From: Strigops habroptila
Taxonomy: Eukaryota > Chordata > Aves > Psittaciformes > Psittacidae
NCBI RefSeq assembly: GCF_004027225.2
Contig: NW_022651116.1
Location: 5,001 to 69,000 of the forward strand
DNA: 64,000 nt
Direction: 5' to 3'
Shown: positions 31,921 through 51,400 of the stretch, in pieces
How the letters are laid out: each line of letters opens with the position of its first letter
Position numbering within the stretch: position 1 is the first letter of the stretch
Notes under the pieces: model-generated
What the model was told of the DNA's origin: nothing
Database searches by the model: none
The model's input: the letters and a program-made list of their open reading frames with translations, nothing else
Program-made: the position numbers and the translations under genes

Positions 31921-34900
31921 ATGGGCCCCCCCGGCACGGCCGCGCTGCTGCTGCCCCCCCTCATCCTGGCACTCGCAGGTAGGGGGAACCCGGGGGGGGG
32001 GGTGGTGGGATGGACCTCGGGGACCCCAAATTCCAGGGACCCTTAATGTGTGTGTGGGGGAACCCCGAAGGCCCTTGAAGGGGGGGACACACACCACTGG
32101 GGACCCGGGCCCAGGACCTCCTAATTTTAGGGAGGGGGGGCGAACCCCCAAAGAGCCCAGACACTGGCCCCCATCATGATGGGGAGCGGGAAGGGGGGAT
32201 CCCCAACGCCAGGGACCCTTAACATTGGGGGGTGGACCCCCAGGAGACCCTATTTCTGTGGGGAGGGGGGACCAAGGACCCCTTAGTAGCATGTGCATGA
32301 AGATACATGTACCATGGGGGACACAGGGGGGGACCCCTAGGACCCCAGACACTGGGTGCCTGGTTTTGGGGGGCCCCCAGGGACCCTTAATGTTGGGGGG
32401 TACACTGGGTGCCTGTTGTTGGGGGGCCCCCAGGGACCCTTAATGTTGGGGGGTGAACCCCCAGGAGACCCTGTTTCGGGAGGGGGGGGCAAAGGACCCC
32501 AGGGAACTTTAGTGCTGGGGTGGACATGACCCCAGGACACCCTATTCTGGGGTGGGGGGCCCAAGGACCCTAGGGACCTTTAGCGCTGGCCACACGCACA
32601 CACACAGGGGGGACCCCCAGGACCCCAGCTGCCCCCAGTAGGGGTCCTATCAGGGTGCTCACCAGGGTGGGGGGGGTCTCACAACCGGAGTCCTCAGCCG
32701 GGGGGTGCCAGGGCTGAGCCGTCAGGGGGTGCCCCCTGGTGGGGGCTCTCGCAGGGGCCACCCGCGGCACGTTCACGGTGGGGGCCTGGCCGCGGGTGGC
32801 CGTGGTGCCCTTCGGGGGCTCGGTGGCCATCAACTGCAGCCGCAGCGCTTGCCCGGGGGGCAATGCCACGCTGGGGCTGGACACCCCCTTACCCGTGGCT
32901 CTGGGGGCCGGCGGGCGCCGATGGCAAAGCTTCCGGCTCCTCAACGTGTCCCAGTGGAGCCCCGGCGCCGCCACATGCTACGGGCGCTGCGGTGACACCC
33001 AAGTCAATGCCAGCGCCGGGATCCTTGTGTACCGTGAGTGCCAGGATGGGGGGAGTCCGGGTGGTGCTTAGAGGGGGGGGCTGTGGTTAATGGTTCGGTG
33101 TCACCACATCCCAGGGCTACCGGAGCGTGTGGTGCTGGAGCCGGTGCCGGCTGTGGCGGTGGGTGAGAGCCGGAACCTGACGTGCCACGTGCTGGAGGTG
33201 GCTCCGGTGGGGAACTTGACGGTGACATTGCGCCGAGGGGCCGAAACGCTACGGACGGCGAGTTTTGGTGCTGTGAATGGCAGCGCCAGCGTGGCTGTCA
33301 CCCATGTGCTGAGCGCCGGGCCCGGGGACCACGGGCAGGATGTCACCTGCCATGCTGAGCTGTCCCTGCGGCCACATGGGCCCCTCTTCGCCCGTGCTGC
33401 CGTCCCCGTCAGGCTCTCGGTGTTCGGTGAGTCCCGGTGCTGGTGCCCATGGAGCCGGCCAGGGGAAGGGGTTGGAGCAGCTCGGCACCACCATGGCCCT
33501 GTCCCCATCCCATCTCTTCCCAGTCCTCATCTGATCTCCATTCCAATCCCATTTCCATGTTGCTGTTCCCATCCCCATCTCAGTCCTCTTCCCTCTTGTA
33601 TCCCCATCCTCAGTCCTGTTCCCATCCTAGTCTCATCTCCATTTCCATCCTAATCCCATTCCAACCCTATTCCTGTCCCCAGTCCCCATCTTTGTGCCAT
33701 CCCAATCCCCACCCTAGTCCCCATCCCCTTCCCAATCCCATCCCAGTCCTGTTCCCATCCCCTTCCCAATCCCATCCTAGTTCAATTCCCATCACAGTCC
33801 CCATTCCCATCCACATCCCATCCTGTCCCCATCTCCATCGCAGTCTTGTTCCCATCTGCTTCCCAATCCCATCCCAGTCCTGTTCCCATCCCCATCGCAG
33901 TCTTGTTCCCATCCCCTTCCCAATCCCATCCCAGTCCTGTTCCCATCCCCTTCTCAATCCCATCCTAGTCCAATTCCCATCCCAGTCCCCATTCCCATCC
34001 CCATCCCATCCTGTCCTATCCCATCCCAGTCTCTCTGGGACTGCCCAGCTGAGCTCCACAACTCTAATCCCCTTCCCATTCCTGAATCCCTCCCTACCTT
34101 CACCCAGTGGCCGCGGCCATGCTGGGATCCCTCCCGGCAACTCCATGTCCTCACCGGTACCCGGTGAGGGTCCGGCCATTGGGATCCATGGTCCCGGTGA
34201 TGCCGCGTCCCCGCAGCTCTCCCGGAGCCGCCGCAGCTCCAGGCTCCATCCCACCTGGAGCTCGGCACCACCAGCACCGCCACCTGCCAGCTCACCGGTG
34301 CCTTCCCCGCCGGCGACGTCCGCTTCACCCTCATCCTGGCCGGGCAGAGCCTGAATTTCACCACAACGGTGGCTGGGGACACACTGACCAGTGTCACCAC
34401 ACTGTCACCCAGCACCGTGGGGCCACAGGAGCTGACCTGCACCGCCGCAGTGGCCACAGCCACACGGACAACACAGAGGCAGCTCCACGTCTACCGTAAG
34501 CACCGGGTGAGGGGGTAACAGGACCCCGTTCCAAAACCCCATTGGACCACCAGCACCTTTCCCGCAGGCTTCCCAGCACCCATCCTGGAGCTGAGCCCGG
34601 CGTCGGCTCCAGCGGGCAGCGAGGTGCTGGTGAGGTGCCACGTTGGTGCTGCTGAGCCCCCAGCACTGTGGCTGCAGCTCCGCGATGCCGACAGTGGGGT
34701 CCTGGCCGAGGGACCACATTCCCGGCTGGAGCTGCCGCTGGTGGCTCGCCGTGAGGATGATGGGCGGCGATTTGGGTGCCAGGCCAGCCTGGCTGTCGAT
34801 GACACCATGGTGACAAAGGACGTGGATGCCCAGCTCACTGTGCTCTGTGAGTGCTGCTCTGCCGATGGCTTCTCCCTGCGTTCCCGGTTGTCTTGACCTG

Positions 34901-37462
34901 GTCGGAGTCAATGGATTGGTCACCCAGCTGGAATTAACTCGGTTTAACAGCGTTTGAGCCAGGCTCAGTTTGATGCTGTTAGAGCCAGGCTCAGATTCCA
35001 GCCTCTCCCACCGCCACATCCCAACGTCTTTTCCAGACATGCCCGAGCTGGCAGCGAGTGACTGTCCCGGGAACCGGACATGGCTGCGGGGGACACGAGA
35101 AGCTCTTTCCTGCCACGCCACCGGCAACCCCGTGCCCACTGTAGTGTGCGGCCGGGACGGCGTCACTGTCAGCACCACGGTCCCGGAGCTGGTCACCCGC
35201 TCCAGAGCTGGCACCTACCTCTGCAATGCCACCAACAGCTTGGGGACACAGACCCAGCTCGTCACCGTCCGCGTGGAGTGTGAGTGGCGCCAGCACCCTG
35301 CGCCGCGGTGACACTGGCAGCACCGGCACTAACCAAGAGCCCTGTTTGTGTCCCCCCCACCCCAAGATGAGCCCACGCTGACGGAGAGGGGCTGCCCCGC
35401 GCACCGGATCTGGGTGGAAGGCGAGCGGCGGGAGCTGGCGTGTCGCGCCGATGGGGACCCGCCACCCAGCACCCGCTGCGCCCGCGACGGCGGCACCGCG
35501 GGCAGGTCAGGAACGCACCGGGCGGTTCACCGCGCCGACGCCGGGCGCTACGTCTGCCGGGCCACCAACAAGCACGGCACCGCGGTGCGCAGTGTGGTGG
35601 TGACCGTGGAGTGTGAGTGCCCGAGGGGACGGGAGCCGGTGGTGCCAGGGATGGGGAGGCTGAAGCCTTGGCTGGGGATGTGGCTATGCTGGGAATAGTG
35701 TTATCCCTGCACCCATCAACCATCACCCAGCCCCAGCACCCATCATCACCCAGTCCCATCATCCATCATCACCCAGTCCCATCATCCAGCACCCAGCCCC
35801 CATCATTACCCAGTCCCATCATCCGTCATCACCCAGTCTCATCATCCATCATCACCCAGTCCCATCAACCATCACCCAGCCCCAGCACCCATCATCGCCC
35901 AGTCCCATCATCCAGCACCCAGGCCCAGCACCCATCATCGCCCAGTCCCATCATCCATCATCACCCAGTCCCATCATCCAGCACCCAGCCCCAGCACCCA
36001 TCATCACCCAGTCCCATCATCCATCATCACCCAGTCCCATCATCCAGCACCCAGCCCCAGCACCCATCAGCACCCAGTCCCATCATCCATCATCACCCAG
36101 TCCCATCATCCAGCACCCAGCCCCAGCACCCATCAGCACCCAGTCCCATCATCCATCATCACCCGGTCCCATCATCCAGCACCCAGCCCCAGCACCCATC
36201 ATCACTCAGCACCCACCATCCATCATCACCCAGTCCCATCATCCAGCACCCAGCCCCAGCACCCATCATCACCCAGTCCCATCATCCATCAACACCCAGT
36301 CCCATCATCCAGCACCCAGCCCCAGCACCCATCATCACTCAGCACCCATCATCAGTCAGCACCCATCATCGCTCAGCACCCATCCCCTTGACCACCATGT
36401 CCCCGCAGATGAGCCAAGCATGGCCGAGCCCGGATGCCCGGCACAGCGGCTCTGGGTCGAGGGGATGCCGGCGGAGCTGGTCTGTGCCGCCACCGGCAAC
36501 CCCCGGCCCCGCGTCGCCTGTGCCAAGCTTGGGGACGGCCACCCCCCCGCGGCGATGAGTGCCAATGTCACCCGCGCCCACGCCGGCACCTACCAGTGCC
36601 AGGCCACCAACAGCCACGGCTCAGCCCTGCGCAACATCACCGTCGCCGTCGAGTGTGAGTTGAGGATGGGGTGACCCAGGGGGTGTCAGGGAGGGACCTG
36701 GGAATCCAGGAGGAGCCTGGGTGTCAGGAGGAGACCCGGGTGTCAAAGGGGGGACCTGGGTGTCGAGGAGGGGACCTGAGTGTCAGGAGGAGACCCGGGT
36801 GTCAGGAGGTTTGGGGTGGGGGGCAAAAAAGGGGCTTTTTGGGGGTGTTTTTCATCTCCGGAGCCATGCTTTGGGTGAGGGCCGGTGCCCCCCCCCCGGT
36901 GCAGACAGCCCGGCCACTGTCACCCTGCGTGTCCTGCCCTCGGCCACCGTCTCCCGCGGCACCAGCTTCAGCGTGGAATGTCGCGCCGAGGGGCTGCCCC
37001 CCCCCACGTACGGCTGGGTGCTGCCGCCCGCTCCCAACCTCCGCTTCGGTGCCGGTAACCGCAGCGTCGCCGTCGCCGGGGCCGCCGCCGCCAACAGGGG
37101 GCTTTATACCTGCACCGCAAGCAACCGGCACGGCTGGCGGGCCGGCAGCGTCCTGGTGCGGGTGGACGGTGAGCTGGGGGCTACGGGGAAACAAGGCGGG
37201 GGGGGCGCCGCCACCGCGGTGCCACCGACACTTTGCCGTCCCGTTAGAGAGCCGGTTGGTGCTGGCGGCGTCGCTGGGCTCGGTGGGCGCCGTTACCGCG
37301 GTGGGTTTGGCGGCTGCCGGGGGTTATTATCTCAAATCAACGGCGTGTAAGAAGGGGGAATACAACGTGCGGGACGCCGAGGGCTCGTCAGAAGCCGCCT
37401 GCCTGCACCGGCAGCGCCGCGGCCGCACCGAGGTCTACGGCATCCAGCTCACGCAGCCGTAA
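31921..37462 (+). CDS. ICAM5: ICAM5-like adhesion receptor (telencephalin), eight Ig domains
   Basis: Type I membrane immunoglobulin-superfamily receptor; mammalian ICAM5 is neuronal and binds LFA-1. Ten coding exons, phase 1 at every border: 31921-31978 (signal peptide), 32755-33033, 33115-33426, 34217-34495, 34568-34846, 35037-35279, 35367-35612, 36409-36654, 36905-37168, 37248-37462; 806 aa. Each middle exon is one Ig domain. D1 has the integrin motif region LDTPLP with an acidic residue where ICAM1 has its key Glu. D5-D7 share C-P-x(5)-W-x-E/R-G and GTYxCxATN-type signatures. The transmembrane segment lies in the last exon, followed by YYLKSTACKKGEYNV and ending YGIQLTQP, close to the ICAM5 tail and unlike ICAM1. 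Human ICAM5 has nine Ig domains; here only three of the middle type are present. Convergent with BEST2. Confidence 0.9.
31985..32740. repeat. Irregular G-rich repeats in ICAM5 intron 1
   Basis: Loose 30-50-bp repeats of CCCAGGGACCCTTAATGTTG and GGGGTGGACCCCCAGGAGAC types between exons 1 and 2. Confidence 0.75.
33510..34050. repeat. Minisatellite in ICAM5 intron 3
   Basis: Units of 17-36 bp such as CCCATCCCAGTCCTGTTCCC and ATCCCCTTCCCAATC. Confidence 0.9.
35700..36395. repeat. Minisatellite in ICAM5 intron 7
   Basis: Units of 16-40 bp with CATCACCCAGTCCCATCATC and CAGCACCCAGCCCCAGCACC. Confidence 0.9.
36660..36830. repeat. Short repeat cluster in ICAM5 intron 8
   Basis: Seven or so copies of GGAGACCCGGGTGTCAGGA and related 20-24-bp units. 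Confidence 0.75.
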
Positions 37463-38414: not shown

Positions 38415-41400
38415 TTAAACCATGTCATCAGCGCTGGGGTGCAGGAGCCAGCACTCGTGGGGGGCGCTGTCCCCTCCTGGGGTGTCCCTCAGGGTGGCTT
38501 TGTCCCCCCTTGGGCTGTCCCCATTCCCCAGCTGGCGCTCGGGGGTCTCCCCAATATCCTCCAGTGGCAGGAACTGCATCTCCTCCTTGGCCAACCTGCG
38601 GGACATCGAGGTCACCCCAAAACCACCCCAGAGTCACCCCTAGCACCCCACACACCCATCAGGGACACCCCCATTCCTTAGGAATGGCTTTTGAGGGTCC
38701 CCGGGAGCACTTTGGGGTCCCTGGTGGGAGTCGGGAGGTCTCGGGGGGGGGGGTTGGAGGACACTGGGGAGGTTTTGGGGTGGCTGAAGCCCCAGAGCCC
38801 CTCGTTTGGGGGGCGAAGGCTCTGGGGGGGGAGGTTGGGGGGGTCCCATCTGCACGTACGTGATGTCGCAGGCGGAGCCGCGGAAGGGCGGGTGGCGCAG
38901 CGGTGCGGCCGCGGCCGTGTACGGCACCCGCGGGCTGGCGGCGTCCCAGTACCGGTCCCGTTCCAGCGCCGGCACCTCCCCGTACAGCTCATCCACCGCC
39001 AGCATGGACACCTAAGGCACGGACCCGGGTCCCATCCTGACACCCGGGTCCTGTCCTGACACCCAGGTCCCCTCCTGGACACCCAGTTCCCAGTGGGAGC
39101 GGGATGGGGATACCTGGAAGTTGCGGTCAATGAGCATGTTGGTCTCGAAGTCATCGTCATCCTCCCCAAAGGGGTTGATGAGTTGCTCAGCCACCTGCAG
39201 CGAGGCCACCATGTCCCTTGAGGCCACTGCGTGTCACCCTGAGGCCACCGGGTGCCATCCCCCCCCCCCCAACCCCACCTTGAGCCACCCCACATAGAAG
39301 AAGAACTGGAGGAGGGTGAAGACGGGGACCCCCAGGTCCAGCTCGTGCCCTGCGTAGCCCTGGGCCGGGTCCAGAAACTGCCGCCCGATGAGGCACGTCA
39401 CGAAGAAGGTGTAGACGGCGATTGTCACCACCTGCAGCAGGGGACAGTCCCCTCTGTGTCCCCTCTGTGTCCCCTCCATGTCCCCTCCATGTCCCCTCAC
39501 GTCCTTCCATCCCTCCCTGTGACCCTCCATCCCATGCCCTTCCACCCTCATCCGTATCCCTCCAGGTCACCCCTGTTTTCCACCATCCTTGTCCCCCTAC
39601 ATCCCTGCCAGGTCCCCCCACATCCTTTCATGTCCCCTCACCCCTTTCCAGCACCCCCATGTCCCCTGGTCCGTGCCCCTCCATCCCTTTTGGGTCCTCT
39701 CCAAGGCCCCCCATCTCTGTCCATGTCTCCCCCGTGTCCCTTCACACCCAGGTCCCCATCCAGCCCCCCCCCCCTCCATGTCCCCATTGCTTCCCAGTGC
39801 CCACCTGGGTGTACACCAGTGGGACGCTGATCCAGTCATAGTGGAAGAGGAGGCTGCAGTGCCCACGGAAGCGGTTCAGCTCCTGCGGGGGGGGACACGG
39901 GAGGGGTTGGGGGTGACAGGGGATCGGGGGGGTCTGTGGAGGGGCTCAGGGGGTCCCTTGGGGCATGTTTGGGGGGGTGCTGGGAGAGGCTCAGGGCGTC
40001 CCTGGGTGGTGTCAGGGGGTCCCTGGGGTGTTCGTGGGTTCCCCGGGGGGTCTCAGAGGTGCCGGGGGGGGGGTCGGGGGGTGGAGGGGGGTGTCCCCCG
40101 GGGGGTGGCGGCTCCGGGGGTACCTCCATGAGGAGCTTGAGGGCGCTGTCATCGCGCACCCGCCCCTCGCGCCGCGCCTGCGCCGCCAGAGCCGCGAACC
40201 AGACGCAGGGGACCCAGAACTGGTTGTGGGGGGAGCGGAGCCCCTCGAGCCGCCGCCGCTCCCCCCGCGTCAGGAACCCTGCGGGACGGGACGTCAACCT
40301 CCGCCTCGTGACGTCACTCCCCGTCCCCGTGACGTCACCGTCCGCTCCCAGTGCTCCCAGTGTTCCCAACACCCTCTCCCAGTGTTCCCACTGTCCCCAG
40401 TGTCCGCAGCTCTCCCACTGGTCCCATCCCCTGGTGCCATCCCCCTCTCCCATCCCCCGTTGCCATCCCCCGGTGCCTTTTCCCGGTGCCATCCCCGGTG
40501 CCATCCCCCTACCCCATAACGTCGCTCCGCCCCATAACGTCCCCCCAGTGCCATCTCCCCGGTGCCATCCCCCTGTCCCATCCCCTGATGCCACCCCCCG
40601 CTGCCATCCCCCGGTGCCATCCCCCCGGTGCCATCCCCCGGTGCCATCCCCTGGTGCCATCCCCCGGTGCCATCCCCCGGTGCCCTTTCCCGGTGCCATC
40701 CTCCGGTGCCATCCCCCGGTGCCATCCCCCTGTCCCTTCCCCCGTTGCCATCCCCCGGTGCCTTTTCCCGGTGCCATCCCCGGTGCTGTCCCCCTACCCC
40801 ATAACGTCCGCCCAGGTGCCATCCCCCTCTCCCATCCCCCGTTGCCATCCCCCCGGTGCCATCCCCCGATGCCATCCCACTTTGCCATCCCCCGATGCCA
40901 CCCCCGGTGCCGTCCCCCTACCCCATAACGTCGCTCCTCCCCATAACGTCCCCCAGGTGCCATCCCCCCGGTGCCATCTCCCTGTCCCATCCCCTGATGC
41001 CATTCCCCGGTGCCACCTCCCGGTGCCACCCCCCCCGGTGCCATCCCCCTGCCCCATAGCGTCGTCGTCGTGGTCCCCCCCCCCCCCCGGGTAAGCCCAG
41101 GCGCGCACCCGCCTGCACGAGGTGGTCGGCGGTGGGGAAGCGCTTGCGCGCCGCCGAGCTGACGGCGCGCAGCACGAGCAGCGCCGCCAGGCTCCCGTAG
41201 CGCAGCAGCGTCCGGCGCAGCAGCCGCCCGCGCGCGTCCGCGCCGTGCACGCTCCCGGCCACCGCCAGCATCAGCCCGTCGGGCGCGGGCACGGCGCGGA
41301 ACTGCCCCCACCAGCGCTCCAGCACCAGCGCCACGTAGAAACCTGCGGCGGCAGCGCGGGGAGATGCGGGGGGGGGGGGGGGTAACGGGGGCACCGAGAA

Positions 41401-44400: not shown

Positions 44401-47092
44401 ACTGGGAGGAGGTGCTGGGGGCACTGGGAGGGGGTGCTGGGGCACTGGGAGGGGGTGCTGGGGCCACCGGGAGCAGCGCTGGGGGTGCTGGGGGGACTGG
44501 GAGGGGGTGCTGGGGGCACCGGGAGCAGCGCTGGGGGCGCTGGGGGCACTGGGAGGGGGTGCTGGGGGCACTGGGAGCAGCGCTGGGGGTGCTGGGGGCA
44601 CTGGGAGCAGCACTGGGGGTGCTGGGGGCACTGGGAGGGGGTGCTGGGGGCACTGGGAGCAGCGCTGGGGGTGCTGGGGGCACTGGGAGGGGGTGCTGGG
44701 GGCACTGGGGGCAGCACTGGGGGTGCTGGGGCACTGGGAGGGGGTGCTGGGGGCACTGGGGGCAGCACTGGGGGTGCTGGGGGCACTGGGAGGGGGTGCT
44801 GAGGACACTGGGAACAGCACTGGGGGTGCTGGGGCACTGGGAGGGGGTGCTGGGCGCACTGGGAGGGGGTGCTGGGGGCACTGGGAGCAGCGCTGGGGGT
44901 GCTGGGGGCACTGGGAGGGGGTGCTGGGGCACTGGGAGGGGGTGCTGGGGGCACTGGGGGCAGCACTGGGGGTGCTGGGGCACTGGGAGGGGGTGCTGGG
45001 GCCACCGGGAGCAGCACTGGGGGTGCTGGGGCACTGGGAGGGGGTGCTGGGGTCTCACCCAGCACGAAGGACACGGGGATGAGGTTGGCCGATTTGTCAC
45101 AGTAAAGCACGAGCTTCTCAAAGAGCCTCTTCTGCGCCTCCGACAGCAGGAACCTGGGACATGGGGGGGTCACCAGCGGCCCCCACCCCCGTGTGTCCCC
45201 CTGCACCCCGTGTGTCCCCATCCTGACCCACCCCAACGTGTCCCCATGCACCCCCCATCCTTCCCCCTGCACCCTGTGCGTCCCCATCACCTCATGGAGG
45301 TGTCCCTGTGCGCCCCATGTTCCCTGCACCCCCATGGACCCCCGTGTGTCCCCCTGCACCCAGTGTCCCCATATGTCCCCATTGCTACGCCTCTCATCTC
45401 CCGCTGCACCCGATGTCCCCCTGCACCCTGTGTCCCCATATGTCCCCATTGCTACGCCCCTCATCTCCCCCTGCACCCTATGTGCCCTTGCACCCTGTGT
45501 CCCCATATGTCCCCATTGCTACACCCCTCATCTGCCTCTGCACCTGATGTCCCCCTGCACCGTGTCCCCCATGTCCCCATTCCTATGCCCCTCATCTCCC
45601 CCTGCACCCCATATGTCCCCCTGCACCCCATATGTCCCCATTCCTATGCCCCCCATCTCCCCCTGCACCCTATGTCACCCTGCACCTCATATATCCCCCT
45701 GCACCCCATATGTCCCCATTCCTATGCCCCCCATCTCCTCCTGCACCCTATGTCCCCCTGCATGCTGTGTCCCCATATGTCCCCATTCCTATGCCCCCCA
45801 TCTCCCCCTGCACCCTATGTCCCCCTGCACGCTGTGCCCCCATATGTCCCCATTCCTATGCCCCCCATCTCCCCCCGCGCCCTATGTGCCCCTGCACCCT
45901 GTGTCCCCATATGTCCCCATTGCTACACCCCTCATCTGCCCCTCACCTGATGTCCCCCTGCACCCTGTGTCCCCCATGTCCCCATTCCTCTGCCCCTCAT
46001 CTCCCCCTGCACCCTGTGTCCCCATATATCCCCATTGCTACATCCCTCATCTCCCTCTGCACCCCATGTCCCCGTGCACCCTGTGCCCCATATGTCCCCA
46101 TTCCTCTGCCCCTCATCTCCCTGTGCACCCTATGTGCCCCTGAACCCTGTGTCCCCATATGTCCCCATTGCTATGCCCCTCATCTCCCCCTGCACCTGAT
46201 GTCCCCCTGCACCCTATGTCCCCATATGTCCCCCATCTCTCCCTGCACCCTGTGTCCCCCTGCACCCTGTGTCCCCATATGTCCCCATTCCTATGCCCCC
46301 AATCTCCTCCTGCACCCTATGTCCCCGGGCACCCAATGTCCCCATATGTCCCCATTCCTATGCCCCCAATCTCCTCCTGCACCCTATGTCCCCGGGCACC
46401 CTGTGTCCCCATATGTCCCCAGTCCTATGCCCCTCATCTCCCCCCACACCCTATGTGCCCCTGCACCGTGTCCCCATATGTCCCCCATCTCCCCCTGCAC
46501 CTGATGTCCCCCTGCACCCTGTGTCCCCATATGTCCCCATTCCTATGCCCCCCATCTCCCCCTGCACCCTATGTGCCCCTGCACCCTATGCCCCATATGT
46601 CCCCCATCTCTCCCTGCACCCTATGTCCCCCATCTCCCCCTGCACCCTGTGTCCCCCTGCACCCTGTGTCCCCCATATGTCCCCATTGCTATGCCCCTCA
46701 TCTCCCCCTGCACCCTATGTCCCCCTGTACCCCATATGTCCCCCTGCACCCCATATGTCCCCAGTCCTATGCCCCCCATCTCCCCCTGCACCCTGTGTCC
46801 CCCTGCACCGTGTCCCCGTATGTCCCCCATCTCCCCCTGCACCCTATGTCCCCCTGCACCCTGTGTCCCCGTGTGTCCCCCATCTCCCCCTGCACCCTGT
46901 GTCCCCCCACACCCCCGTGTCCCCCCACATGCATAGGCACCGGTAGGCCAGGCTGAGCCCCAGGTAGGCGGTGAGGAAGAGGAGCAGCTCCCGGTAGAGC
47001 AGTTTGTAGATGCTCCCGCGCCAGAGCAGCAGCAGCCGCGAGAAGCCCCCGAAGCGTGTGGTGGCCACGCGTGACGTGTATGTCACCGTCAT
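38415..47092 (-). CDS. BEST2: Bestrophin-2 Ca2+-activated chloride/bicarbonate channel, complete
   Basis: Plasma-membrane pentameric anion channel. Nine coding exons, phases consistent: 47092-46941, 45153-45059, 41342-41109, 40278-40124, 39882-39805, 39431-39279, 39194-39114, 39011-38860, 38595-38415; 426 aa (human 509, the difference lying in the C-terminal tail). Start [16 protein letters not shown] matches the family. Neck residues Ile76, Phe80 and Phe84 ([10 protein letters not shown]) are intact, as is the Ca2+ clasp GEDDDDFE with Glu300 and Asp301-304, at the same numbering as in human. FLDPAQGY and FTLLQFFFY are also present. BEST2 is preferred over other bestrophins because GET3, TRIR and TNPO2 follow, as in human. 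The region upstream of the start codon is an array of copies of the start itself (see 47061-47690). Large introns are filled with minisatellites. Confidence 0.92.
39435..39800. repeat. C-rich simple repeat in BEST2 intron
   Basis: Repeats of CCATGTCCCCT and ACATCCCTGCCAGGTCCCC type; low complexity. Confidence 0.65.
39895..40115. repeat. G-rich simple repeat in BEST2 intron
   Basis: Repeats of GTCCCTGGGGTG/TCAGGGGGTCCCTTGGGG between the exons ending at 40124 and starting at 39882. Confidence 0.6.
40330..41085. repeat. CCATCCCCCGGTG minisatellite in BEST2 intron
   Basis: Units of about 13-14 bp, CCATCCCCCGGTG, with inserts ACCCCATAACGTC at about 40509, 40796 and 40920, indicating a longer second-level repeat. 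Confidence 0.9.
41400..45055. repeat. 3.65-kb G-rich minisatellite in BEST2 intron
   Basis: Several hundred short units of GGGGGTGCTGGGG, ACACTGGGAGCACTGGGAG and, on the right, GGCAGCACTGGGGGTGCTGG, arranged in compound 30-78-bp units. It reaches to within a few bases of the donor at 45059. Because the units are often multiples of 3 and lack stops, long open frames run through it on both strands; these are artefacts of the repeat. Confidence 0.95.
45185..46930. repeat. Minisatellite in BEST2 intron 1
   Basis: Units of 20-70 bp with CCCCCTGCACCCTATGTCCC, CATATGTCCCCATTCCTATG and CCCCCCATCTCCCCCTGCA, filling the intron between coding exons 1 and 2. Confidence 0.92.
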
Positions 47093-47690
47093 GGCAGCCC
47101 TGGGGACACACGTGTGGCCACGCGTGACGTGTATGTCACCGTCATGGCAGCCCTGGGGACACACGTGTGGCCACGTGTGACGTGTATGTCACCATCATGG
47201 CAGCGCTGGGGACACATGTGGCCATGCATGACGTGTATGTCACCGTCACGGCAGCACTGGGGACATGTGTGGCCACGCGTGACGTGTATATCACCGTCAC
47301 GGCGGCCCTGGGGACACGCGTGGCCACGCGTGACGTGTATGTCACCGTCATGGCAGCCCTGGGGACACGTGTGTGGCCACGCGTGACGTGTATGTCACCA
47401 TCATGGCAGTGCTGGGGACACGTGTGTGGCCACGCGTGACGTGTATGTCACCGTCATGGCAGCGCTGGGGACATGTGTGGCCACGCGTGACGTGTATGTC
47501 ACCGTCATGGCAGCGCTGGGGACATGTGTGGCCACGCGTGACGTGTATGTCACCGTCATGGCAGCGCTGGGGACATGTGTGGCCACGCGTGACGTGTATG
47601 TCACCGTCATGGCAGCGCTGGGGACACGCGTGTGGCCATGTGTGACGCGTATGTCACCATCACGGCAGCCCTGGGGACACACGTGTGACA
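47061..47690 (-). repeat. BEST2: 12-copy tandem repeat of the BEST2 start-codon segment
   Basis: The unit is the genuine acceptor (CCCCAG), a 7-base leader, ATG and the codons for [11 protein letters not shown]. On the minus strand the start-codon positions are 47092 (the real one), 47145, 47198, 47249, 47300, 47351, 47404, 47457, 47508, 47559, 47610 and 47663. Nine keep ATG; 47249, 47300 and 47663 have GTG. Spacing is 53,53,51,51,51 twice and then 53, so there is a 259-bp five-unit higher-order repeat. Upstream copies carry acceptor-like AG and start codons but no downstream BEST2 frame; the frame in line with BEST2 is closed just upstream of 47164. Confidence 0.93.
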
Positions 47691-47841: not shown

Positions 47842-47915
47842 CTCAGTAAGAGCTGCACCGGGGCGGCCGCCGCGGCTCTGCGGCCACCGGCCCCGTCCTG
47901 CGGCCTTAAATACCA
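47842..47915 (-). promoter_or_regulatory. BEST2: BEST2 promoter (TATA-like) and first exon donor
   Basis: TATTTAAG at 47905-47912 on the minus strand in a GC-rich setting, with a donor (ACTGAG|GTGAGTGAG) ending a short probable 5' UTR exon at 47842. About 30 bp below the TATA-like box gives a start near 47880. The exon would splice across the start-codon repeat array to 47099. Confidence 0.55.
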
Positions 47916-48438: not shown

Positions 48439-51400
48439 TTATTTGGGGCTGGGGGGCTGGTAGGGGTCCAGGAGGAGGCAGGAGAAGGTGTTGACTTTGT
48501 CGGCCCCTCGCACCTCATGGGGCAGCAGCGGCAGCTTCACGATGTGGAAGTCCTCGTAGAGGTCCTCCATCTGTGGGGAGGGATGGGATGGGGAACCCCC
48601 ATAGGACCCCCAAGGACCCCCCACAGCACGCCCCAACCCCAAATTCCACCCTCAAACCCCCCCCAAACCCCAAATTCCGCCCTCAAACCTCCCCCAAACC
48701 ACAAATTTCACCCTCAAATGCTCTTCCAAACCCCAAACTCCACCCTCAAACCCCAAATTTCACCCTCAAACCCTCTCCCAACCCCCAAATTCCATGCTCA
48801 ACCCCCCCAACCCCCAAATTCCAGCCTCAAACCCTCTCCCAACCCCCAAATTCCATGCTCAACCCCCCCAAACCCCAAATTCCACCCTCAAACCCTCCCC
48901 AAAACCCCAAATTCCATCTTCAAACCTCCCCCAAACCCCAAATTCCACCCTCAAACCTCCCCAAACCCCAAATTCCACCCTCAAACCTCCCCAAACCCCA
49001 AATTCCACCCTCAACCCCAAATTCCACCCTCAAACCTCCCCAAACCCCAAATTCCACCCTCAACCCCCCAAACCCCAAATTCCACTCTCAAACCCTCCCC
49101 CAAACCCTAAATTCCACACTCAAACCTCTCTCAACCCAAATTCCAACCTCAACCCCCCAACCCAAAACTCCACCCTCAAACCTCCCCCAAACCCCAAATT
49201 CCACCCTCAAACCTCCCCAAACCCCAAATTTCCACCCTCAAACCTCCCCCAAACCCCAAATTTCACCCTCAAACCTCCCCCAAACCCCAAATTCCACCTC
49301 AAACCTCCCCAAACCCCAAATTCCACCCTCAAACCTCTCCTAAACCCCAAATTCCACCCTCAACCTCCCCCAAACCCCAAATTCCACCCCAACCTCCCCA
49401 AACCCCAAATTCCACCTCAAGCCTCCCCAACCCCAAATTCACCCTCAAACCTCCCCAAACCCCAAATTCCACCCTCAAACCTCCCCCAAACCCCAAATTC
49501 CACCCTCAAACCTCCCCCAAACCCCAAATTCCACCCTCAAACCCTCCCCCAACCCCCAAATTCCACCCTCAAACCTCCCCCAACCCCAAATTCCACCCTC
49601 AAACCTCCCCCAAACTCCAAATTCCATCCTCAAACCCCAAATTCCATCCTCAAGCCCCTCCCAATCCCCAAATTCCACCCTCAAACCTCCCCCCAACCCC
49701 AAATTCCACCCTCAAACCACCCCCAAACCCCAAATTTCACCCTCAAACCCAAATTCCACCTTCAAACCCTCCCCAACCCCAAACTCACCCTCAAACCTCC
49801 CCCAACGCCCAAATTTCACCCTCAAACCCCAAATTCGACGCTCAAACCCTCCCCCAAACCCCAAATTCCACCCTCAAACCCCAAATTCCATGCTCAAACC
49901 CCCCAACCCAAATTCCACCCTCAAACCCCCTCCCAGACCCACACAACAGCTCCAAGTTCACCCGCGCTGCCCCAATCCCCTCCCATTCTCCCCCAAACCA
50001 CCCCCCCCTCTTGCCCTGTGGCCCCCCCCGGGCCGGGGGTACCTGGTCAAGGTACTTGGCCTGGATCTTGTGCCGGGCCTCGCACATCTTGCAGGGCCGC
50101 TGGGGGTCGGGGAACACGAGCTGGTTGACCACGATGTTGTGGGTGTCGATGCGGCACTTGGCCAGCTCCTGGATGAGCCGCTCGGTCTCGTAGAGCGACA
50201 GGAAACTCCGCGATGCACACGCAGATAAAGTCGTCTGCTCCTACCAAACCCCCCCCCCCCCCAAAAAAGCCACCCTCAGGGGGACACCTCCACATAGGTG
50301 ACAACCCCCCTCCGGTGGAGCATTCCCTGCAGGAATGCACCCGGACCCGCTTGGCAACATCCCCACCATCCCCACTCCCCTCTTTGGCATCCCAAGTCCT
50401 CTCGCACCGTCCTCACGGCCCCAAATTCCACCCCAAAACCCCCAAATTCCAGCCTCAACCCCCCCCCCCCCCAGTGTCCCTGCTTCCCTCTTTGGCTTCC
50501 CAGTGTCCCCATGTCCCTGTTGGTGGCCTTACAGGGTCCTTGAACTGCTCGCTGACGGAGCGGATAACGGGCAGCGTCTCCTCCAGCTTGGAGGCCAGTT
50601 GGTCGGCGTTCATGTCCCCCAAGCCCAACATGTTGCACATCTGAAAGACACGGTGGTGAAGCTCCAACCCCTCCAAAAGTGTCCCCCCGTCACCCCACAG
50701 CGTATGGGGGTATCCCCCCTCACCTGAGAGATGAAGGGGCTGATCTGGTTCTTGATCTGCATGAGGCGACCCAAGCCGCGCTCCACGATGGTGGGGAAGT
50801 TGAGGAGCCGCAGCGTGTGGCCGGTGGGCGCCGTGTCAAACACCACCACGGAGAAGTTCATCCCCTTCACCAACCTGTCCCAACACCATGGCAGGGAGGG
50901 GGACACAGTGGGGTCACAACCCCCCCTAAAATAGCTCTGTCCCAACATCCCCCCCAAACCAAACGCTCACCTCATCACCTCCGCGTAGCTCATGGCCTCG
51001 TCGATGCCGGGGAAGGCGCTCATGGCCTCCTGCATCATCTTCTTGCCCATGCTCAGCATGTTGTCCTCCTCAAAGAACTCATCAGGCAGCTCCGCCACCC
51101 CCAGGCTGGGGTCGATCTCCTGGGGATGAGTTGTGGGGGGGGTCAGAAGGGGGAATGTGGTGACGGAGCAGCACCGGGAGCACCGGGAATACCGCGCTCA
51201 CCATGGCAAAGAGGTTGTCGTAGCCCTTCACTTTGGTGGGGACCTTGGAGAACTTCTGGTCGAAGGCGTCGGAGATGTTGTGCGCGGGGTCGGTGGAGAT
51301 GATGAGGACGCTCTCGCGCACCTTGGAAAGCTGCACGGCCAGGCTGCAGCTGGGGGGACAGCGGGGACAGCCGGGGGGGTCCTACCCCCTCACACACACA

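Follow-up and report, generated by a model that had tools for sequence, protein, structure and literature searches.

The start of BEST2 has been copied into a minisatellite. Twelve head-to-tail copies of 51 or 53 bp each lie on the minus strand at about 47055-47687 of the window (the whole 64,000-nucleotide stretch of DNA analyzed here, bases 5001-69000 of the 241,945-bp contig C88), and every one of them carries the splice acceptor, the leader, and the start-codon position of the first coding exon. We consider it highly probable that the array arose by exon stuttering of the BEST2 start exon and that its copies are mostly neutral passengers. Sequence stuttering has been described for chicken dot chromosomes; in the form termed exon stuttering, according to the main text of the report, a lateral part of an exon, including the donor or acceptor splice site next to it, is copied through the intron (Hron et al. 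2026, PMC12954441). The first-pass annotation of this DNA had known of no described case of the kind. That claim does not hold because the class itself, acceptor copying included, is already published there; the novelty, measured against that main text, is the start codon inside the copied exon edge.

The array and its host gene

Each unit consists of the acceptor CCCCAG, a 7-nt leader, the start-codon position, and nine further BEST2 codons, and in copies 1-11 it is closed by a short, intron-like tail that ends in TGT. The copies are numbered here from the promoter side (copy 1) to the true exon (copy 12), with minus-strand starts that run from 47676 to 47105. The spacing from start to start in this direction is 53,51,51,51,53,53,51,51,51,53,53, which read from the gene side is the repeating series 53,53,51,51,51 that had been claimed; the count of twelve copies, nine of them with an intact ATG (GTG in copies 1, 8, and 9), was confirmed as well. 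CCCCAG is invariant across 12/12 copies. The pattern used to search for copies demanded this motif; the copies abut without a gap, so no copy was missed for want of it. The coding sequence common to the repeat and the true exon amounts to 32 bp (47061-47092), that is, ten codons and 2 nt. The unit thus contains acceptor, leader, and coding start as had been stated but not the first eleven codons: codon 11 specifies Thr in repeat and true exon alike, but the codons differ. The exon-derived length is 39 bp per unit, with 11 extra copies and a total array length of 627 bp (Table 1).

Tandem Repeats Finder gave two descriptions of 47061-47687, a 51-bp unit in 12.1 copies (score 967) and a 259-bp unit in 2.4 copies (score 1072), the latter corresponding to the higher-order unit that had been proposed. 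A period of five is found in 4 of the 462 possible arrangements of these lengths and any period from two to five in 7 of them, and the length pattern is therefore unlikely to be random. The substitutions, on the other hand, show no blocks of five units, as copies 1-11 are no more alike at a lag of five (0.907) than as neighbors (0.910). A recent 259-bp higher-order unit was rejected on this ground, and what stands of the proposal is the length pattern.

Only copy 12, on the gene side, runs on into BEST2, in agreement with the first reading: the best PDB match of the exon leaving the array is Bestrophin-2 (E 1.2e-18, alignment from residue 1). The seven exons between 47092 and 39114, when joined, give one continuous open frame. 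Two further 3' exons (9 and 10), read separately and not joined, are likewise open, and the last of them ends in TAA. BEST2 looks like an intact bird chloride-channel gene. A TATTTAA-like box stands immediately upstream of the putative exon 1, and the donor that had been placed after 47842 is present (GAG/GTGAGT); the eleven decoy copies lie between this putative exon and exon 2. By eye, the exon 2 donor at 46941 (CCG/GTGCCT) looks weaker than the GTAAAC, GTACAC, and GTGAGC of three other bestrophin loci. In published work on the ion channels of the zebra finch, BEST2 was not found for that bird, and the gene is given there as seemingly complete in chicken and some songbirds (PMC6679542).

Table 1. 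Positions of the array, the BEST2 exons, and a candidate short direct repeat in the window
Feature	Position	Strand	Remarks
Tandem array, 12 copies of 51/53 bp	47061..47687	-	acceptor, leader, start, and ten codons per copy
Copy 12: true acceptor, leader, BEST2 ATG	47055..47105	-	exon begins 47099; ATG 47092-47090
Copies 1-11, decoy acceptors and starts, intron 1	47106..47676	-	ATG 8/11; GTG copies 1, 8, 9
Putative non-coding exon 1	47842..47885	-	read from sequence; 5' end approximate; donor GAG/GTGAGT
BEST2 exon 2, coding part, codons 1 to 51 (split)	46941..47092	-	donor CCG/GTGCCT
BEST2 exon 3	45059..45153	-
BEST2 exon 4	41109..41342	-
BEST2 exon 5	40124..40278	-
BEST2 exon 6	39805..39882	-
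BEST2 exon 7	39279..39431	-
BEST2 exon 8	39114..39194	-
BEST2 exon 9	38840..39011	-	open frame; 3' limit approximate; not joined to next exon
BEST2 last coding exon	38415..38595	-	TAA at 38417-38415
GTCACACGTG	47680..47689	-	9/10 identical to exon's GTCACGCGTG at 47075-47066

Genomic setting and origin

A search of the 1.149-Gb assembly with two units (the search skips very common words) returned 7 matches, all of them at the BEST2 locus. Three other bestrophin loci (L002, L003, and L004 on contigs C4, C3, and C8; 3.15 kb each compared) contained no extra copy above the match threshold of 42.1 bits within about 1.5 kb. Tandem repeats make up 0, 0, and 1.5% of these loci, respectively, as compared with 67% at BEST2, where 9 copies were counted. 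L002 is closest to bestrophin-1, and its exon agrees at all but 2 of 50 residues with a PDB bestrophin-1 that we take to be the chicken protein, which makes a bird other than chicken the likely source. At the place that corresponds to the BEST2 acceptor, an acceptor-like site was read 8 and 18 nt before the ATG in two of the three loci (L002 and L003), the third giving no clear reading.

The window has a GC content of 63% and consists of tandem repeats to 48%; the corresponding values for the contig are 63% and 47%, with 153 merged arrays of units of at least 24 bp. From this composition, the contig may belong to a dot chromosome. Among 10 ORFs chosen from 527 candidates in the window, 7 matched Pfam domains, namely, an ion-channel domain (below the curated cut-off), cytochrome P450 (twice), amidase, Ig, ArsA-type ATPase, and importin. 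When 10 BEST2 exons and 26 ORF chunks of the window, 36 in all, were tested for extra copies, BEST2 exon 2 was judged the sole clear case, with 9 of its 11 decoys above 42.1 bits. Seven other chunks, whose gene names are partly our assumption, also had matches above this threshold: two CYP chunks, one before the amidase exon, one GET3 chunk, and three Ig chunks. None was accepted as stuttering. On inspection only, the CYP, pre-amidase, and GET3 matches were judged to be intron or repeat sequence read through by the ORF and the three Ig matches to be related Ig domains. Several Ig-like ORF chunks, presumably ICAM-like, stand in a row on the plus strand at 32718-37220, of which 35333-35695 matched Ig domains.

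A scan of the whole contig for ATGs born within arrays gave 196 candidates, 84 of which have an ORF that exits into mostly non-repeat DNA. Among the latter, 26 are accompanied by an acceptor-like AG, and 6 of these are also coding-like in composition, with BEST2 ranking first. Because its coding-like composition is the strongest of the 84 contig candidates, the array-born ATG of BEST2 is not a chance occurrence. The second-ranked candidate (contig position 69238, minus strand) is presumably antisense to a TNPO2-like gene. Two further arrays were seen near open frames. A 16-copy, 65-bp array on the plus strand at 593-1646 has a Kozak-like GCCACCATGG in its unit, and the ORF that leaves it, to which no gene was assigned, is mildly coding-like in composition (0.22). 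A 43-bp array, L035 (C88, 230753-231055), lies near an ORF stretch reading YTLETAYGYRLDLGFLGYVEAIEKG, which we take to be KANK-like.

Taken from the sequence, the array is most likely a local minisatellite expansion, which splicing would remove together with intron 1. The initial duplication would have taken in the 5' end of exon 2 (acceptor, leader, start, and ten codons) along with a few intron bases. Expansion by slippage or by unequal exchange would have followed, in surroundings that are rich in GC and prone to repeats, presumably those of an avian dot chromosome. The 10-bp near repeat formed by GTCACACGTG and GTCACGCGTG could have seeded the first duplication, or it may be a worn edge of the array. 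Slippage driven by hairpins was considered and rejected: the folding of three single units, and of nearly three consecutive copies on either strand, was not clearly better than that of shuffled sequences (z from +0.49 to -1.57), 13 of 200 shuffles folding equally well in the best case, and we therefore claim no special structure. The source exon was kept intact at the gene-side edge, so that BEST2 would still be made from the last acceptor, while the eleven other copies would be removed with intron 1, mostly as neutral passengers and perhaps with some leaky splicing.

An expansion of one or a few copies by an error of long-read assembly was weighed as a rival explanation. Copies 2, 3, and 4 are indeed identical across their 51 bp, and the genome search found one BEST2 locus, with no second haplotype to compare. 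The remaining copies, however, are told apart by substitutions or by their length of 51 or 53 bp, and arrays abound on the contig, which makes an artifact scarcely credible.

Decoy acceptors, upstream reading frames, and possible function

Intron 1, as read from the sequence, contains 16 AG dinucleotides after the end of exon 1, of which 12 lie in the array, one per unit. On a weight matrix built from approximate vertebrate frequencies, copies 1 and 11 and the true copy 12 all score 2.01; copy 8 follows with 1.44 and copy 7 with 1.06, and 7 of the 11 decoys fall below 0; the eight other BEST2 acceptors range from -0.23 to 4.93. Since copies 1, 11, and 12 score equally, the sequence alone does not tell the true acceptor from those of copies 1 and 11; what probably marks it is that the remainder of the exon follows directly.

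The use of any decoy acceptor would, as computed, place between 1 and 19 upstream ATGs ahead of BEST2. After such splicing, the first ORF would span 6 to 69 codons. Its end would fall 49 to 514 nt short of the BEST2 ATG, except for copies 9 and 11, where ORF and ATG overlap by 4 nt; past the ATGA of BEST2, none of these 11 ORFs continues into the gene. Of the decoy starts, only that of copy 6 shares the phase of BEST2, and its frame closes after 18 codons. The stop-to-stop frame of BEST2 itself, which opens near 47188, holds no Met ahead of the true start. An N-terminally extended BEST2 was thereby ruled out for all 11 decoy start positions. The ORFs of copies 2-5 terminate at the ATG of copy 6, that of copy 6 at copy 7, those of copies 7-10 at copy 11, and that of copy 11 at BEST2 itself. 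This pattern arises from the ATGA (or GTGA) within the unit, combined with the frame shift that a 53-bp unit introduces; the stop-start overlap is a property of the unit and no evidence of design. The repeated 17-residue reading that had been predicted is intact only through copies 2-4 and is degenerate in copies 7-9.

These features are what a regulatory role would build on, which the first-pass annotation had suggested as a damping or tuning of BEST2 translation. In some transcripts, upstream acceptors would be joined to exon 1, part of the array would stay in the 5' leader, and the resulting upstream ORFs would lower the translation of BEST2 or trigger mRNA decay, in proportion to copy number. 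There are eleven extra acceptors with start positions, two of which tie with the true acceptor; all of the decoys would add ATGs before the gene, and their ORFs end on a stop overlapping the next start. Against this stand the low scores of the seven decoy acceptors below zero and of two more below the true site (9/11 in all, on the same approximate matrix) and the stop-start pattern, which follows from the unit itself. Moreover, the codons show no sign of constraint. Measured against the true copy, the 11 decoys carry 13 non-synonymous and 0 synonymous codon changes over the ten codons, which are few and not independent of each other, and 3 of the 13 are lost ATGs (3/11 decoys), whereas 9 of the 30 possible transitions over these codons would be silent. 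That all changes are non-synonymous speaks against selection for the encoded peptide, and no selection on decoy starts or peptides is apparent. The preservation of CCCCAG in every copy could hint at constraint. On present evidence, we regard a regulatory use of the decoys as unlikely, with a small chance of being right. The extended idea of a copy-number dial, in which, with an array of variable length, more copies in an individual would mean more frequent splicing to out-of-frame starts and less channel, so that stuttering would directly give rise to heritable expression variants, we rate as distinctly improbable.

A role in transcription has also been weighed, in which the CpG-rich repeat would extend a promoter CpG island into intron 1 and act as an enhancer or keep the promoter unmethylated; the unit includes what we take to be an ACGTCA-like half site. 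The array holds 59 CpGs at an observed/expected ratio of 0.963. The remainder of intron 1 has a ratio of 0.319, and three further large arrays in the window have 0.157, 0.094, and 0.111. Among the 90 contig arrays of at least 300 bp, the BEST2 array takes fourth place by CpG density and fifth place by observed/expected ratio. A fourth array (48631-49901), however, reaches 0.691, on only 4 CpGs, and the source exon is itself CpG-rich (0.821), so that the copies inherit their CpG content. A transcriptional role is very unlikely in our estimate. The CpG richness fits youth, lack of methylation, or inheritance from the CpG-rich exon; the retained CpG content may point to a young or hypomethylated array and not to an old passenger.

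The BEST2 array is a clean case in which exon stuttering has struck the start of translation while the gene retains an open frame, and the cost of the process in mis-splicing and upstream ORFs is therefore directly measurable. Should the decoys be used after all, the instability of dot chromosomes would be linked to a change in expression and perhaps to gene loss there.

Comparison with known systems

The multiplication of a splice site of the host gene by a minisatellite is reportedly found in the human interferon-induced transcript IFI6/6-16, which the BEST2 array resembles in this respect. In IFI6/6-16 the multiplied sites are said to be donors in a 12-nt unit, whereas in BEST2 they are acceptors together with start codons in a unit of 51 or 53 bp. 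The other intronic minisatellites of the window have a similar unit size and share the neighborhood of the BEST2 array but, unlike it, were judged to share no exon edge among the 36 exons or chunks tested. No account of a minisatellite made from a start codon was found in the open-licence PMC literature, covered mostly by titles and the beginnings of abstracts.

The closest counterpart is exon stuttering, for which the main text of Hron et al. counts 115 genes and 236 introns, 190 of these introns being located on dot chromosomes, and reports length variation in 183 of 192 such introns (PMC12954441). The exon part ranges there from 20 to 187 bp (median 36), the number of copies from 1 to 44 (median 4), and the span of the arrays from 112 to 23,555 bp; the exon share, the number of extra copies, and the span of the BEST2 array all lie within these ranges. 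As in the published cases, the unit includes the edge of the exon and the adjacent splice site, the copies stand in tandem and are confined to the adjacent intron (here an intron 1 predicted from sequence), the source exon is intact, the setting is GC-rich and repeat-rich, and related genes elsewhere are without the repeats (0/3 bestrophin loci with extra copies, within about 1.5 kb). The terms start codon, ATG, UTR, and BEST2 do not occur in the main text of that report, although BEST2 may be among the 115 genes of its Fig. S5. From exon stuttering as described in that text (PMC12954441), the BEST2 array differs in that the copied edge holds the translation start.
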